Part shown: positions 3,282 through 21,823 of the stretch, piece after piece | Layout: each line of letters opens with the position of its first letter | How positions within the stretch are numbered: position 1 is the first letter of the stretch | From: a virus | Direction: 5' to 3' (one strand) | IMG/VR virus record: IMGVR_UViG_3300032291_001037 | Coordinates: 1-36,326 of that record | Length of the DNA stretch: 36,326 nt | Program-made: the position numbers and the translations under genes | Notes under the pieces: model-generated | Told to the model about the DNA's origin: nothing | Databases searched by the model: none | The model's input: only the letters and a program-made list of their open reading frames with translations

Positions 3282-3889
3282 TGCCATATCCTGCAATCTC
3301 TGCACTTCCGGCTGCACCATCAAGGTTGGGTGACCCTAATAACTTTGTCACAGAAAGCCTTGATTTTTTAGATGCACAAATTGATTTTACCAGTGAATGC
3401 AACGCAGTATCGTCTTATCTAAACGCAGCTAAATTTGACCCATACGAATGGGGAAATCTATCTGCCATTACAGGAAGTGCGCCTGTATCTATTACGCATT
3501 TTATTAATGCAGCACCTTCAACTGTCACGCTGTCAGGCTCGGCTTTAGCAGATGCTATTGATGAAATGCTTTCTAGCATGGTCGCCTTTGTTCCTGACGC
3601 TAATACAGTTGGCGAATGGATTGACACCATTGAAGACCCAGCCGCTCCAGAGATTGTTGACCCATCACGCCCGACTGTCAGCACCATCGCTGACACGCCA
3701 CTACGCAATGATGGGCAGTTGACCTTTGAAAGCAAGGCTATTGCTTTTTATGGCAGCGCAGGTTCATTTTCCATATCTATGCAAAACTTTGCTGATTATG
3801 TTGGTTCATTTTCAAGCGGTTATGAAGATTGGAATGGCATAGACGTTGTATATGATGAACAGGACGATTGGGGATTTATAAATGAGTAA
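3281..3889 (+). CDS. Tail-associated protein of unknown function
   Basis: A 202-residue protein. The ATG at 3281 overlaps the previous stop (TAATG), and a GGTGGAGGG ribosome site sits just upstream, so I prefer it to the longer frame from 3251. It starts MPYPAISALPAAPSRLGDP and contains FVTESLDFLDAQIDFTSECNA, a pattern familiar from small proteins encoded next to tail-tip and fibre genes in siphoviruses. No catalytic motif or membrane segment is visible. It overlaps the next fibre gene by 8 nt, so the two are probably translated together. Virion or tail assembly role is inferred from position. Confidence 0.65.
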   Translation: MPYPAISALPAAPSRLGDPNNFVTESLDFLDAQIDFTSECNAVSSYLNAAKFDPYEWGNLSAITGSAPVSITHFINAAPSTVTLSGSALADAIDEMLSSMVAFVPDANTVGEWIDTIEDPAAPEIVDPSRPTVSTIADTPLRNDGQLTFESKAIAFYGSAGSFSISMQNFADYVGSFSSGYEDWNGIDVVYDEQDDWGFINE

Positions 3890-4424
3890 ACAAGTCAAAA
3901 TGCGGCGCGGAACCGCGGCGGAACATAACAGCTTCACTGGCGTTGTCGGTGAAGTTACTGTTGACACAACCAACCATAATTTGCGCGTTCATGATGGCGC
4001 TACTGTTGGCGGCAACCCTACTGCTAAGGCTGGAGCTAACACTGACATCACTTCGCTAAAGCAAGATGTGGCAGTTGCGGCATCTGGAACTATTGCCGCT
4101 ACATCAATCGGCTATCGTGGATTGCCACAAAATAGCCAAACATCTGCCTACACGTTGGCGCTTTCGGATATTGGCAAGCAAATTTCTATCACCACAGGTG
4201 GTATCGTTATTCCTGCTAATGCTTCGGTGGCCTTTCCTATCGGCGCAGCTATTGCGATATTCAATAACAGTGCAAGTAGCCAAACTATTTCCATCACTAG
4301 TGATACATTGCGCCTTGCGGGGACTGCCGGAACAGGCACTCGCACACTTGCACAATATGGCTTGGCAACTTTGGTCAAAGTTACTGCGACTATATGGGCT
4401 ATTACTGGCGCGGGCATAAGCTAA
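3882..4424 (+). CDS. Tail fibre protein with Mtd/hyaluronidase-type N-terminal domain
   Basis: A 180-residue fibre protein. Its N-terminus (KMRRGTAAEHNSFTG, then GEVTVDTTNHNLRVHDG) is the short beta domain found at the start of many phage fibre proteins and in the major tropism determinant family. It serves as an attachment or trimerisation module. The rest is low-complexity Ser/Thr/Ala/Ile-rich beta sequence, with a repeated type of segment (ISITTGGIVIPANASVAFPI) expected of a fibre shaft. It starts 8 nt inside the previous gene and is followed by the next gene with a TAATG junction. The length is short for a complete fibre, so it may assemble with the next product. Confidence 0.7.
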   Translation: MSKQVKMRRGTAAEHNSFTGVVGEVTVDTTNHNLRVHDGATVGGNPTAKAGANTDITSLKQDVAVAASGTIAATSIGYRGLPQNSQTSAYTLALSDIGKQISITTGGIVIPANASVAFPIGAAIAIFNNSASSQTISITSDTLRLAGTAGTGTRTLAQYGLATLVKVTATIWAITGAGIS

Positions 4425-16582: not shown

Positions 16583-16885
16583 ATGGATTACGCAAATTTA
16601 ATTCGCAAATGGGCTGAAGACCGCAACCTTATAGAAGGCAGCGACCTCAAAAGCCAATTCGTCAAACTGATTGAGGAGGCTGGCGAACTGGCTAACGCTA
16701 TCGCTAAGAACAACAGGGATGAATTTGCAGACGCTATTGGCGATATGTTCGTCGTGCTGACCATCATGGCAGCGCAGAATGATATGTGGGTAGAAGATTG
16801 CATCGCACGCGCATATATCGAAATTAGGCATCGCAAGGGTAAGATGGTTGACGGCATTTTCATCAAGGAAGAAGCAGATGTTTGA
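16583..16885 (+). CDS. MazG-like nucleotide pyrophosphohydrolase
   Basis: A 100-residue all-alpha protein of the MazG superfamily. The metal-binding residues are seen as EEAGEL (Glu31, Glu32, Glu35) and EFADAIGD (Glu47, Asp50, Asp54). Members hydrolyse (d)NTPs to monophosphates plus pyrophosphate and may clean the nucleotide pool or lower alarmone-type signals during infection. In a phage with a nucleotidyltransferase cassette nearby, it might also remove unwanted nucleotides. AAAGGAGC lies before the ATG. It overlaps the next gene by 8 nt. Confidence 0.85.
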   Translation: MDYANLIRKWAEDRNLIEGSDLKSQFVKLIEEAGELANAIAKNNRDEFADAIGDMFVVLTIMAAQNDMWVEDCIARAYIEIRHRKGKMVDGIFIKEEADV

Positions 16886-17177
16886 TTATGATTTTATGCC
16901 GGAAGAAAAAGTAGATGAAGTGGTGCTTGTTGACAGCCTAGGCATGACGCCACGGCAATTAAACATGGAATTGATAGCAGCTATCGCGCAAGAGTATGAC
17001 TACACGCTTGAGGACGTTTTAGGCAAAAGCAAGCTGAAAGCCTTGGTCGCAGTAAGGCGCAAGTGCATGGTAATGCTGCGGGATAAAGGTTATTCGACTA
17101 CAGAGATTGGGCGGATTATGAAACGCGACCACAGCACCGTTGTTCACGCACTGCAAAAGAGTAGGGCTACAACATGA
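16878..17177 (+). CDS. DnaA domain-IV-like DNA-binding protein without ATPase
   Basis: A 99-residue protein whose residues 30-95 match DnaA domain IV: LIAAIAQEYDYTLEDVLGKS, RRKCMVMLRD, YSTTEIGRIMK and the signature RDHSTVVHA (83-91) that contacts DnaA boxes. The AAA+ domains are absent. It could bind DnaA boxes on phage or host DNA, to regulate phage transcription or block host initiation. Domain-IV-only phage proteins exist but are rarely studied. It overlaps the MazG gene by 8 nt and the next HTH gene by 4 nt. Confidence 0.85.
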   Translation: MFDYDFMPEEKVDEVVLVDSLGMTPRQLNMELIAAIAQEYDYTLEDVLGKSKLKALVAVRRKCMVMLRDKGYSTTEIGRIMKRDHSTVVHALQKSRATT

Positions 17178-17389: not shown

Positions 17390-17600
17390 TCATCAAGTGG
17401 GCGGCAACCATTACGCATCTAAGGCTATCCAGCCATGGGAGGCAATGGAGGCGTGGATGAGTAAAGAGGCATTTACTGGCTTCCTTCATGGTAATTGTAT
17501 AAAATACTTAGCAAGGTATATAGACAAGAACGGCATTGAAGACTTAAAGAAGTGCCAGCATTACCTCGCAAAGCTTATTGAGATTGAGGGCGGAGCATGA
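17373..17600 (+). CDS. DUF3310 protein
   Basis: A 75-residue protein of the DUF3310 family: VGGNHYASKAIQPWEAMEAW then FLHGNCIKYLARYIDKNGIE, and LKKCQHYLAKLIE. The family is widespread in phages and is sometimes called nucleotide-kinase related, but its function is not proven. GAGG lies 6 nt before the ATG at 17373; the ATG at 17367 is too close to it. It overlaps neighbours on both sides. Confidence 0.88.
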   Translation: MTQANSHQVGGNHYASKAIQPWEAMEAWMSKEAFTGFLHGNCIKYLARYIDKNGIEDLKKCQHYLAKLIEIEGGA

Positions 17601-18382
17601 TTGAGACACCAAAGATTGAACAGCGCAGCGTTGCGGATTTAATCCCGTATGCAGCCAACAGCCGAACGCATAGCGATGCACAGGTTGCCCAGATAGCGGC
17701 AAGCATTAAAGAATTTGGCTGGACAAACCCAATCCTTGTCTCTGGCGATAACACTATCATTGCGGGACATGGGCGCTTGCTGGCAGCACGCAAGCTTGGC
17801 ATGGAAGAAGTGCCAGCGATTGTCCTTGACCACCTTAGCAAAGCACAGCAACGCGCCTTAGTAATAGCCGATAACCAGCTTGCCTTAAATGCAGGGTGGG
17901 ACATGAATATGTTGAAGGCCGAGATTGAAGACCTAGACCTAGAAAACTTTAACCTTGATATATTAGGATTTGATGAAGACTTTTTGGATGGATTGCTAGA
18001 GACGAAACCATCTGGAGATGCAGAAAATCCTTATACAACTAAAATCAAAACGCCTACTTACGAGCCACAGGGCGAAAAGCCTGCGGTAAAAGAATTGTAT
18101 GACGACGCAAAAGCTGTCGATTTGATTGCCGCCATTAAAGCCAGTAATGTTAGCGAGGAAGAAAAGCTCTTTTTGATGGCAGCGGCTTCGAGGCATATCG
18201 TTTTTGATTATGCAAAAGTCGCCAATTTTTACGCTCACTCGTCGGCAGACTGCCAAGAGCTTATGGAAAATAGCGCGTTGGTTATCATCGACTTTGATAA
18301 GGCGATAGAAAATGGCTTCGTCAAGCTAACGGAAGCCATTAACGAAATGTTCCAATATGGTGAAGATAGCGAGGATGAATAA
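17597..18382 (+). CDS. ParB-like domain protein with an extra C-terminal domain
   Basis: A 261-residue protein. Residues 7-100 are a ParB/sulfiredoxin-type domain (SVADLIPYAANSRTHSDAQV, QIAASIKEFGWTNPILVSG, IIAGHGRLLAARKLGMEEVP), with the GHGR box in place of the usual GERR. Many phage relatives join this to a DNA methyltransferase. Here the C-terminus (YEPQGEKPAVKELYDDAKAV, SRHIVFDYAKVANFYAHSSA, MENSALVIIDFDKAIENGF) carries no methyltransferase motifs. It starts with ATGA overlap and overlaps the next gene by 8 nt, so it belongs to the cassette with the phosphatase/cytidylyltransferase and glycosyltransferase. Confidence 0.78.
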   Translation: MIETPKIEQRSVADLIPYAANSRTHSDAQVAQIAASIKEFGWTNPILVSGDNTIIAGHGRLLAARKLGMEEVPAIVLDHLSKAQQRALVIADNQLALNAGWDMNMLKAEIEDLDLENFNLDILGFDEDFLDGLLETKPSGDAENPYTTKIKTPTYEPQGEKPAVKELYDDAKAVDLIAAIKASNVSEEEKLFLMAAASRHIVFDYAKVANFYAHSSADCQELMENSALVIIDFDKAIENGFVKLTEAINEMFQYGEDSEDE

Positions 18383-19328
18383 CGACTACACCTTTGTCCG
18401 TCATGGGCAAACATATTGGAATAAGAATGGGATAATGCATGGGCAGTATGACATCCCTCTAAATTACACTGGTGTAAAGCAAGCAGCAAAAATTTCTAAT
18501 GAGCTAAAGGACGAATTTTTCGACCTGTGTCTATGCTCCCCGCTGCAACGAGCAAAATCTACCGCCTTTAGCATATTGCGCCACCATAAAAATACGCCAA
18601 TCCTGTATGATGGTAGGCTGAAGGAACTAAGCAAGGGATTGCTAGAGGGTAAGCATTTGAACAGTGAAAAGCTGCTCAAAGATGAAGACCTTAATTTGCT
18701 CAAAAAATTTAATATCGAAAGTAAGGTAGAATTTTTTGAACGGGTGAAGCAATTTGTAGACGAAACTGAAAAAAAATATAAAAATAAGAAAATTCTGATA
18801 GTAGCCCATAGCGGCACTATTAAGATGCTATTTTTTGCTTTTGATTTTCCAAAGGTTCCGCTTCATAGGGCTTACTATGGTTTGCATATAAAAAATTGCA
18901 AAGCGTATAAGGTCGGCTCAATACATTCAGAAAGTAAGAAAATGAAAATTGGTTTCTTCCCGATGGTCGCAGACATTCTACATTCCGGTCATGTCCTATC
19001 CCTTGAGGAAGCTAAGAAGCATTGCGACTTTTTGATTGTCGGCTTGCACTGTGCGCCTAACTACAAAAGCCCACAGCAATCAATCTATGAACGCTATATG
19101 CAGCTAAGGGCTGTGAAGTGGGTAGATGAAGTTATCCCTTATGAGAACATCGAAAAGGATAAGGACATTTTTGTGTCTTTAGACTATGATGTCTACTTCC
19201 TTGGCGAAGACCATAAAAGCGATGACTGGGAGCTAAAGGACAAAATCGAGGAGATGGACAAGGAGATTGTCTATCTGAAGCGTAAGCATAGCTACAGCAG
19301 CCGGAAAATTAAAAATGAGTGCAAATAA
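18375..19328 (+). CDS. Histidine phosphatase fused to a TagD-like cytidylyltransferase
   Basis: A 317-residue two-domain enzyme. Residues 1-185 are a phosphoglycerate-mutase-like phosphatase: FVRHGQT with phospho-His10, SPLQRAKST (Arg59), Glu84 and AHSGTIK (His145). Residues 190-317 are a nucleotidyltransferase: GFFPMVADILHSGH (HxGH, His203 and His206), YERYMQLRAVKWVDEVIPYE, and an end VVYL-R---ISTTKIK-like in TagD, seen here as IVYLKRKHSYSSRKIK. TagD makes CDP-glycerol. It may therefore dephosphorylate a sugar or polyol and activate it as a CDP derivative. AT-richer than flanking genes, so possibly acquired. The ATG at 18375 is preferred to 18357. Confidence 0.82.
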   Translation: MNNDYTFVRHGQTYWNKNGIMHGQYDIPLNYTGVKQAAKISNELKDEFFDLCLCSPLQRAKSTAFSILRHHKNTPILYDGRLKELSKGLLEGKHLNSEKLLKDEDLNLLKKFNIESKVEFFERVKQFVDETEKKYKNKKILIVAHSGTIKMLFFAFDFPKVPLHRAYYGLHIKNCKAYKVGSIHSESKKMKIGFFPMVADILHSGHVLSLEEAKKHCDFLIVGLHCAPNYKSPQQSIYERYMQLRAVKWVDEVIPYENIEKDKDIFVSLDYDVYFLGEDHKSDDWELKDKIEEMDKEIVYLKRKHSYSSRKIKNECK

Positions 19329-20190
19329 AAACATTGCCGTCTTTATCCTTTCCCACGGCAGGCCGGATAATGTCATCACTTATAGGACATTGCGTAGCTG
19401 CGGCTACACCGGAAAAATTTTCATCATAGTAGATGATGAGGATGAGACGTTAAGCCAATACCAAGCCAAATATAAAGACGAGGTTATTGTCTTTAGCAAA
19501 AAAGATTATGAGCAAAAATTTGACATAATGGACAACTTCGATGGCAACAAAGTCATCGTTTATGCGCGTAATGCCTGTTACGACATAGCGCGGGAATTGG
19601 GCTTAGATTACTTCTTTGAGTATGAGGACGATTATCAGCATTTCCAATATAGGTATCCAAAGAACAAATCCTTAAAAGTAATTGGTGTCAAAAATCTTGA
19701 TGAGATATTAGACGCAATGATTACTGGCCTTAACCAAACTAATGCCAGCACAATCTCATTTGCCCAAGGCGGAGACCTCATGGGAGGGATTAAGACTTTA
19801 TACGCAAGCGCGTATAAGAGGAAGGCAATGAACAGCTTTGTGTTCAAGGTTAATAAAGACCCAGCAGATGATGTTCTATTCATTGGCAGGATGAATGACG
19901 ACGTAAATACGTATCTAACGCAGGGCAAGGTGGGTAAGCTCTTTGCTCAAATATCCGTAATAAATTTAGTGCAGCTTCAAACTCAATCTAATTCTGGCGG
20001 CAACACAGAAGCCTATAAATTATTCGGCACTTATGTAAAATCATTCTATAGCATTATGGCCGCGCCAAACTGCTGTAAGATTGACTTGATGGGAACTACA
20101 AACAGGCGGCTTCACCATAGGATAAACTGGAACCATGCCGTTCCTAAGATTATCGGAGAACAGCACCGCAAACCAAGGTATGCAGAATGA
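19315..20190 (+). CDS. TET-associated-type glycosyltransferase (TAGT-like)
   Basis: A 291-residue protein. The N-terminus (IAVFILSHGRPDNVITYRTL then CGYTGKIFIIVDDEDE) and the VIVYARNACYDIARELGLDY block followed by FFEYEDDYQHF (acidic DxD-like site near 104-106) match the TET-associated glycosyltransferase family. Those enzymes are known to glycosylate hydroxymethylated bases in phage DNA, usually near a TET dioxygenase. No TET gene or DNA methyltransferase is present here. The start overlaps the previous gene by 14 nt and the end overlaps terS by 4 nt. Its sugar donor may be the CDP product of the preceding gene, which is inference. Confidence 0.8.
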   Translation: MSANKNIAVFILSHGRPDNVITYRTLRSCGYTGKIFIIVDDEDETLSQYQAKYKDEVIVFSKKDYEQKFDIMDNFDGNKVIVYARNACYDIARELGLDYFFEYEDDYQHFQYRYPKNKSLKVIGVKNLDEILDAMITGLNQTNASTISFAQGGDLMGGIKTLYASAYKRKAMNSFVFKVNKDPADDVLFIGRMNDDVNTYLTQGKVGKLFAQISVINLVQLQTQSNSGGNTEAYKLFGTYVKSFYSIMAAPNCCKIDLMGTTNRRLHHRINWNHAVPKIIGEQHRKPRYAE

Positions 20191-20579
20191 CAGATGTTAA
20201 ACTAACCGCAAAGCAAGAGGCATTCGCTCAAGCAATAGCTGATGGGCTAGGCCAAGCTGACGCATATCGCTTTGCTTATGATGCTGAAAACATGAAGGAT
20301 GAGAGCGTTTATCCGCAGGCATCTAAGCTAATGAAAAACCCTAAGGTCGCTACAAGGGTTGCGGAATTGAAGGCGCAGGTAGCAGATAAGCAGCTATGGA
20401 CGCGAGAGATGTCCGTTAAGGGCCTAATCAGCGCGTATCGTATCGCACTGGAGGCCAAGACCTCAACAGGCATGACGGCAGCGGTAAAAGAGCTAAATAT
20501 CATGCACGGCTATAATGAACCGACCAAGCTTTCGGTCGATGTTAAGTTTAAGCCTATAACGGATGAAGACTGGCTTTGA
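20187..20579 (+). CDS. terS: Terminase small subunit
   Basis: A 130-residue protein of the Terminase_2 family. The N-terminal HTH reads LTAKQEAFAQAIADGLGQAD then AYRFAYDAENMKDESVYPQA and KLMKNPKVATRVAELKAQV. The C-terminus (AVKELNIMHGYNEPTKL) is the typical oligomerisation tail. It recognises the packaging site and feeds DNA to TerL, whose gene overlaps its stop. The pac or cos site is expected nearby but cannot be seen by eye. Confidence 0.92.
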   Translation: MTDVKLTAKQEAFAQAIADGLGQADAYRFAYDAENMKDESVYPQASKLMKNPKVATRVAELKAQVADKQLWTREMSVKGLISAYRIALEAKTSTGMTAAVKELNIMHGYNEPTKLSVDVKFKPITDEDWL

Positions 20580-21823
20580 ACTTCACCGATAGCCAGAAAG
20601 CGTTTGTCTTTAGCCAAGAGCCATTCCCTGCCTTCGTTGGTGGCTTTGGTTCGGGGAAGACGGCTGCTGGCATCGCACGCATCATGCGGCTCAAGCGTTA
20701 TTGCCCATATCAAGATGTAGCATATTACCTGCCGACCTATCCGCTTATTGAAGATATTGCCTTTCAACGCTTCCCCGCACTGTTTGAAAAAAACGGCATC
20801 CCGTTTAAGCTTAACCAGCAAAAGGCGGTGATGGAAACGGAACTAGGCCGCATCATCTTTCGCAACATGGAGCAACCTGACCGCATTGTCGGTTATGAGG
20901 TAGCACATAGCGTAGTAGATGAGCTTGACACACTGCCTATCGAAAAGGCGCGTTCGGTCTGGAATAAGATTATCGCCCGTAACCGCCAAAAGGCTTTCAC
21001 GGTATCTGGTAAGCCTGTCCGCAACACTGTGGCCGTAGCGACAACGCCGGAAGGTTTCCGCTTCGTCTATGACCGCTGGGTAAAGAACAAGGCAGAGGGC
21101 TACGCGCTGTATAGGGCCAAGACCTCGGACAACGCAGCTAACCTGCCCGAAGATTATATTAAGAACCTGCAGAACAGCTATTCATCCAGCCTACTGGCTG
21201 CGTATCTGGATGGAGAGTTTGTCAACCTCACGGCTGGCAGTGTCTATCCAGAGTTTGAACGGAAGCTAAATATCACGCTTGAGCAGATACAGCCAAGGGA
21301 GCCTCTGCACGTTGGGCTAGATTTCAACGTCAACAACATGAGCGCGATTGTCTGCGTCATACGTAATAACAACCCATTGGCACTTGATGAGCTGATAGGC
21401 GTAAGGGACACGCCAACGATGATTAGGGCGCTACTGGAGCGTTACCAAGGACATCAGATAACAGTTTACCCAGATGCGTCAGGCGGGGCCACCAAGAGCG
21501 TCAACGCCAGCCTTTCGGACATAACCTTGCTGCGCTCTGCTAACTTCACTGTGCTTGCACCAAATAAAAACCCAGCCGTGAAGGACAGGGTGATAGCAGT
21601 GAACCAGATTATTCATAATCAAGGCGTCCGTAGATTATTAGTAAATCCTGACAAATGCCCTAATTTAATTGAAGGATTAGAGCGCCAAGCCTACAATAAA
21701 TCTGGCGAACCTGATAAATCTTCGGGCTTTGACCACTTAAACGATGCCATTGGCTACCTTATTGCATATAAGTATGGTATTGGACGTGGAACAGTTTCAT
21801 TTGCACAAATCGCAGGGGTTTAG
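20576..21823 (+). CDS. terL: Terminase large subunit
   Basis: A 415-residue packaging motor. Walker A GGFGSGKT (22-29), Walker B VVDELD (113-118), a coupling-type ATTPEG near 160, and the nuclease domain starting LHVGLDFNVNNMSAIV with further acidic sites PDASGG and HLNDAIGY. The start is a TTG overlapping the terS stop (TTGA at 20576-20579). Length is usual for the shorter TerL types. It cuts concatemers and drives DNA into the prohead through the portal encoded next. Confidence 0.95.
   Translation: MNFTDSQKAFVFSQEPFPAFVGGFGSGKTAAGIARIMRLKRYCPYQDVAYYLPTYPLIEDIAFQRFPALFEKNGIPFKLNQQKAVMETELGRIIFRNMEQPDRIVGYEVAHSVVDELDTLPIEKARSVWNKIIARNRQKAFTVSGKPVRNTVAVATTPEGFRFVYDRWVKNKAEGYALYRAKTSDNAANLPEDYIKNLQNSYSSSLLAAYLDGEFVNLTAGSVYPEFERKLNITLEQIQPREPLHVGLDFNVNNMSAIVCVIRNNNPLALDELIGVRDTPTMIRALLERYQGHQITVYPDASGGATKSVNASLSDITLLRSANFTVLAPNKNPAVKDRVIAVNQIIHNQGVRRLLVNPDKCPNLIEGLERQAYNKSGEPDKSSGFDHLNDAIGYLIAYKYGIGRGTVSFAQIAGV

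Follow-up and report, generated by a model that had tools for sequence, protein, structure and literature searches.

Phage gene clusters that combine a methyltransferase, a TET enzyme (5mYOX) and a glycosyltransferase are reportedly the subject of Burke 2021 and Pyle 2024. The locus described here lies in a 36,326-base phage record (IMGVR_UViG_3300032291_001037; this whole stretch of DNA is called the window) and has in common with those clusters a GT-A glycosyltransferase presumed to act post-replicatively. However, no methyltransferase was found in the window, TET was not detected in a search run without a positive control, and beside the glycosyltransferase, a member of the TAGT family, lies instead a ParB-like protein that ends in a domain termed PBC. 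The TAGT family PF20691 includes the T2/T6 beta-glucosyl-HMC-alpha-glucosyltransferase, which, in phage DNA, attaches a second glucose to hmC that is already glucosylated (PMC13216743). That enzyme is phage-encoded with a predicted GT-A fold, as is the window TAGT, but T-even phages first synthesise hmC and attach glucose to it, whereas neither a hydroxymethylase nor an alpha- or beta-GT was found in the window, and the window TAGT, unlike the T2/T6 enzyme, is coupled to ParB-PBC. TAGTs without an alpha- or beta-GT were counted in 288 of 753 phages, and those that lack a partner glycosyltransferase have been termed potential novel transferases (PMC13216743).

ParB domains have also been linked to the modification of phage DNA bases. 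In the part of the CmoX/CmoY carboxymethylcytosine study drawn on here, ParBc genes accompany the cytosine carboxymethyltransferase CmoX in phages, with a ParBc-domain protein on many CmoX contigs; the chemistry and enzymes differ from those of the window cassette, and no TAGT is described in that part (PMC12783734). The closest relatives of the window ParB-N domain are the N-termini of phage ParB-N6_N4_Mtase proteins (phrog_498 type), to which it is 55-64% identical, but the window protein carries no catalytic methyltransferase domain and has ParB-N followed by PBC and then by a separate TAGT gene. The closest solved sequence to the cytidylyltransferase encoded between ParB and TAGT is Bacillus subtilis TagD, a glycerol-3-phosphate cytidylyltransferase (1COZ, E 4e-14) with the same HxGH site and nucleotidyltransferase fold. 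The window domain nevertheless scores 54.3 bits against the glycerol-3-phosphate cytidylyltransferase equivalog TIGR01518, far under its cut-off of 165.4, is fused to a histidine phosphatase, and is linked to a glycosyltransferase, whereas the B. subtilis enzyme is linked to wall teichoic acid polymerase.

Gene layout, composition and selection

The last and first ORFs of the window join in frame across its ends with no stop, which by frame alone has a chance of 1/3, and for this reason the window is possibly a whole genome, circularly permuted and opened within a tail gene. The three overlapping genes that a first-pass annotation had placed directly before the terminase were recovered with the same coordinates and overlaps:

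17597-18382, + strand: ParB gene; overlaps the fusion gene
17597..17953, + strand: ParB-N domain (ParB aa 1-119), PF02195, E 4.6e-7; putative DNA clamp or targeting module
17981..18379, + strand: PBC domain (ParB C-terminal, aa 129-261), helical; TAGT-associated
18357-19328, + strand: histidine phosphatase-cytidylyltransferase fusion gene; overlaps the ParB and TAGT genes
18375..18932, + strand: histidine phosphatase domain, PF00300, E 1.5e-35; RHGxT and second His intact
18933..19328, + strand: TagD-like cytidylyltransferase domain with HSGH motif, PF01467, E 1.9e-13; putative maker of a nucleotide-activated donor
19315..20190, + strand: TAGT glycosyltransferase gene (GT-A fold), PF20691 and phrog_842; overlaps TerS
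20187..21823, + strand: terminase small and large subunits, Pfam Terminase_2 and Terminase_6; landmark outside the cassette

The fusion gene more likely starts at the ATG at 18375 than at 18357, and the TerS gene begins at 20187, within the end of TAGT. The earlier domain calls also hold, with the Pfam matches to ParB_N, His_Phos_1, CTP_transf_like and TAGT all above their gathering cut-offs; Pfam, PHROGs and NCBIfam concur on ParB_N, histidine phosphatase and a cytidylyltransferase-like domain, and Pfam and PHROGs on TAGT. Comparison with four relatives gave dN/dS values of 0.02-0.15 across the three cassette genes, and because of these low ratios the reading frames are judged to be genuine and under strong purifying selection.

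The GC content is 39.8% in the fusion, 41.0% in TAGT, 45.4% in ParB and 48-49% in the terminase. The fusion is thus indeed AT-richer than its neighbours, as had been noticed, but the transfer into the window phage that this had suggested is rejected as a recent event, since the fusion or its TagD homologue is the AT-richest of the three genes in 65 of 89 loci (duplicates counted). By this recurrence in homologues, AT-richness is a lasting feature of the cassette.

Two further genes of the window were recorded. Upstream of the cassette, near MazG and DUF3310 genes, a 109-aa protein (16848-17177) consists of the DnaA C-terminal DNA-binding domain alone (PF08299). The Major tropism determinant N-terminal domain (PF18454) encoded at 3882-4424 might be targeted by a diversity-generating retroelement; the window ORFs scanned included no reverse transcriptase.

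The PBC domain and its TAGT partner

Against the full partition-protein profile TIGR00180, the ParB protein scores 34.4 bits, under the cut-off of 58.45, and its C-terminus is occupied by PBC, a name coined here for an undescribed domain. The first-pass annotation had hinted that this C-terminus matters, and the hint proved well founded in that the region forms a domain of its own with a tie to TAGT. PBC had zero matches in Pfam and NCBIfam scans, and phrog_620 spans it only within a 'ParB-like partition protein'. R, H, Y, E and D residues (R71-H72, Y84, E96 and D104 in A1 numbering) are invariant among its homologues, and the AlphaFold model is a small helical domain with core pLDDT >90. Comparison with the PDB returned nothing at E <= 0.001 (Foldseek best E 1.2, VIA-align best Z 3.5), and the two matches at E <= 0.001 in BFVD are both sequence homologues with 47-50% identity. 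No known fold was matched; the ends of the model are poorly predicted, hence a new fold is not proven.

How closely is PBC tied to TAGT? Judged by coordinates, PBC directly precedes TAGT in 28 of 28 phage records, an archaeal virus included, and TAGT lies directly downstream of PBC in 44 of 44 loci from many phyla among GTDB species genomes. The query of the GTDB scan was the PBC alignment alone, and the scan was hence unbiased towards TAGT. PBC was likewise found in nearly all of 121 distinct TAGT loci (99.5% clusters), which were collected with window sequences as bait and include many short contigs. The few without PBC appear to be cut at contig ends, with the exception of L067, where a ParB-N without PBC adjoins a divergent TAGT and then TagD. 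PBC without ParB-N stands before TAGT or TagD-TAGT in Vibrio Va1, L066, L068, L112 and L123, and IMG/VR yielded no PBC relatives of the Vibrio Va1 type. Across 54 loci, PBC and TAGT distances co-vary with a partial r of 0.43 given ParB-N, and the corresponding value for ParB-N and TAGT given PBC is 0.15. On these neighbourhoods and distances, PBC is the partner domain of TAGT, almost always encoded right beside it, and the core of the cassette is two genes, the ParB-N/PBC protein and TAGT.

The assignment of TAGT rests on PF20691 (E 1.7e-29, 103.7 bits against a gathering threshold of 27.5) and phrog_842 (E 9.5e-63). Its invariant residues include D105-D106 and N194-D195-D196, and the model has a GT-A fold (pTM 0.83) with Z scores of 11-14, up to 13.7, to GT-A enzymes. 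Of the three genes it has the highest dN/dS (0.11-0.15), with dS also high; positive selection on it is unsupported, and exchange of alleles or a relaxation of constraint fits the pattern better than adaptive change does. Relative to the ParB and fusion genes, which are mostly 80-97% identical in nucleotides to those of L004, L005, L008, L009 and L011, the TAGT segment 19547-20147 is a local diversification hot spot in which identity to the same loci falls to 67-83%. ParB and the fusion of locus L007 share ~79-95% identity with the window; the match weakens within TAGT and gives way to an unrelated terminase.

Cassettes were found in 31-55-kb phages of many phyla and in one haloarchaeal virus. 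When other phages were searched for the same neighbourhood, as had been proposed, the PBC-TAGT pair recurred, and no TET or methyltransferase gene recurred beside it, the TET search being without a control. Across 75 representative loci the commonest recurrent neighbour families were terminases, and there was no recurrent methyltransferase, dioxygenase, hydroxymethylase or hydroxylase neighbour. Among 5,426 complete E. coli genomes, 1,572 contain a match and 885 (~16%) carry at least 80% of the ParB-TAGT pair. In the Rac prophage of E. coli C600 (L184 2501-3104), ynaK is the 87-residue ParB-N stump of a ParB-PBC gene, with a 97.7% identical protein; trkG and ynaK persist there, matching the intact version in 99.7% of nucleotides across 2,431 bases, and the remainder of the ParB gene (PBC) and TAGT are missing.

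The ParB-PBC/TAGT cassette is thus widespread and uncharacterised. No paper on ParB with TAGT was found in the literature searched, which did not extend to key phage DNA-glycan papers, where a prior description is possible. A large group of orphan TAGTs is now tied to a specific partner domain, and near-complete copies in about one-sixth of complete E. coli genomes make the system testable in ordinary laboratory hosts.

The phosphatase-TagD fusion

The first-pass annotation had treated the three genes as a unit, which does not stand, for the fusion is optional. A phosphatase-TagD fusion sits between ParB-PBC and TAGT in most close relatives in IMG/VR, but TagD occurs in only one of 44 PBC-TAGT cassettes of bacterial genomes. 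TagD without phosphatase holds the same position in L101, L103, L109, L110 and L112, precedes PBC in L068, follows TAGT in L067 and L172, and lies among the five consecutive TAGTs of L123, a 115-kb phage. At least five gene orders thereby keep TagD with TAGT: TagD fused, on its own, ahead of PBC, behind TAGT or within the five-TAGT array. In Vibrio Va1-type phages TAGT and TagD are in separate places. In a midpoint-rooted FastTree tree, of which the topology alone was used, the cassette TagDs group in a single clade separate from other phage TagDs. The RHGxT motif is kept in 87 of 90 phosphatase homologues, and the phosphatase is missing from several TagD-TAGT cassettes.

As far as gene order and phylogeny can tell, the fusion is an add-on to the cassette and not a recent arrival, with an optional phosphatase. 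Since TagD stays with TAGT through several gene orders as one clade, and the phosphatase is optional, TagD is regarded as a linked companion of TAGT, with the phosphatase as its probable helper. This persistence strengthens the activated-donor role that had been proposed for the TagD-like domain. One TAGT lineage is thereby tied to a putative donor-making enzyme as well; together with the partner domain, this makes a former orphan family open to experiment as a system. Two of these arrangements may be given in full. L123 5413-10837 reads PBC, four TAGTs, TagD and a further TAGT, which suggests stepwise building of an oligosaccharide, and L172 7950-9674, from a Firmicutes genome bin, has the order PBC-TAGT-TagD, with TagD downstream of TAGT.

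Proposed function and alternatives

We place a probability of roughly 0.5 on the window cassette being one for phage DNA glycosylation. DNA is inferred as the target, since it is phage DNA that the TAGT family modifies and N6/N4 DNA methyltransferases are the fusion partners of the closest ParB-N relatives. ParB-N would bind or clamp phage DNA and PBC would dock TAGT, so that the ParB-N/PBC protein delivers TAGT to the DNA. TAGT would then transfer a sugar or a CDP-linked polyol onto phage DNA bases, and the glycosylated bases would shield the DNA from host nucleases. For the donor, the phosphatase would take a phosphate off a sugar or polyol (bis)phosphate, leaving a phosphate ester for TagD to couple to a nucleotide. 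Against this reading, no hydroxymethyl-acceptor enzyme was found, the nearest solved folds to TAGT are protein- or glycan-directed, and TagD falls under its equivalog cut-off and is absent from most PBC-TAGT cassettes of bacterial genomes.

Profile searches of the window record found neither a cytosine C5-methyltransferase (PF00145; control positive in 10 genomes) nor a thymidylate-synthase-family dCMP hydroxymethylase (PF00303; control positive). N6_N4_Mtase, present in the ParB-N relatives, was also absent from the window record, and Pfam scans of about 50 window ORFs contained no DNA methyltransferase or hydroxymethylase. Tet_JBP had no match in 51 carrier records or in the Pfam scans of window ORFs, but, for want of a positive control in the Tet_JBP search, the exclusion of a divergent TET-type dioxygenase from the window is less firm. 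The earlier statement that methyltransferase, hydroxymethylase and dioxygenase are all lacking is accordingly upheld for the first two and less firm for the third. The literature searched contained no measurement of a modified base in any cassette carrier.

In one specific form of the DNA-glycosylation reading, which we consider doubtful, ParB-PBC and TAGT would act without prior hydroxymethylation, on an unmodified base or on an acceptor made by PBC, with a CDP-activated sugar or polyol from the fusion as the donor here. By analogy with the bases targeted by the ParB-N-fused N6/N4 methyltransferases, an exocyclic amine is a possible unmodified acceptor. If true, it would add to the known DNA modifications a kind absent from the literature searched, present in phages and prophages of many bacterial phyla, and a sugar placed on DNA without a known hydroxymethyl pathway would constitute a new class of anti-restriction modification and provide a useful enzyme.

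An alternative hypothesis, which we regard as unlikely, is that TAGT glycosylates a protein, be it a host defence protein, RNA polymerase, the terminase, a capsid protein or ParB/PBC itself, and that PBC is a presenting adaptor. In its favour, no base-preparing enzyme was found in the window or recurring nearby. The nearest solved folds to the TAGT model are also protein- or glycan-directed, such as N-acetylglucosaminyltransferase I and GalNAc-T2, yet none found is close in sequence, and these neighbours are generic, at ~10% identity, such that the comparison cannot tell DNA- from protein-directed GT-A enzymes. For lack of a solved structure close in sequence, the alignment test suggested in the first-pass annotation likewise does not discriminate. 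RefSeq names the E. coli homologue 'GREB1-related', and vertebrate GREB1 has been reported to glycosylate a protein. However, the ParB-N type found here otherwise accompanies DNA methyltransferases, and the characterised T2/T6 TAGT works on DNA (PMC13216743).

Ordinary glycosylation of a hydroxymethyl-pyrimidine, with the hydroxymethyl group supplied by the host, a co-infecting phage or an unrecognised phage enzyme, seems quite improbable. The characterised TAGT substrate is indeed a hydroxymethylated, already glucosylated pyrimidine (PMC13216743), and many window ORFs have no annotation, in addition to the uncontrolled Tet_JBP search. Against this, cassettes in many phyla and a haloarchaeal virus share no widespread neighbour but the terminase, and a C5-methyltransferase occurs in three of the 51 carrier records and the thymidylate-synthase family in one, that of Vibrio Va1, where the gene bears the annotation thymidylate synthase and stands next to dihydrofolate reductase. 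It is very unlikely that the phosphatase-TagD fusion is a mere neighbour of TAGT with another role, such as host-surface or teichoic-acid-like modification, for although TagD families are best known for cell-wall polymer synthesis and TagD is absent from most PBC-TAGT cassettes, the linkage survives several rearrangements within one TagD clade and the Pfam scans of the window revealed no glycerophosphotransferase.

Finally, in Agathobaculum phage AB434P2 (OP172633.1; L132 769-5582) a TagD-like gene is clustered with a thymidylate-kinase-like gene and a dUMP hydroxymethylase. The cluster also includes a weak choline/ethanolamine-kinase-like match and possibly serves a phosphocholine- or phosphoethanolamine-type hypermodification of 5-hydroxymethyl-dU.
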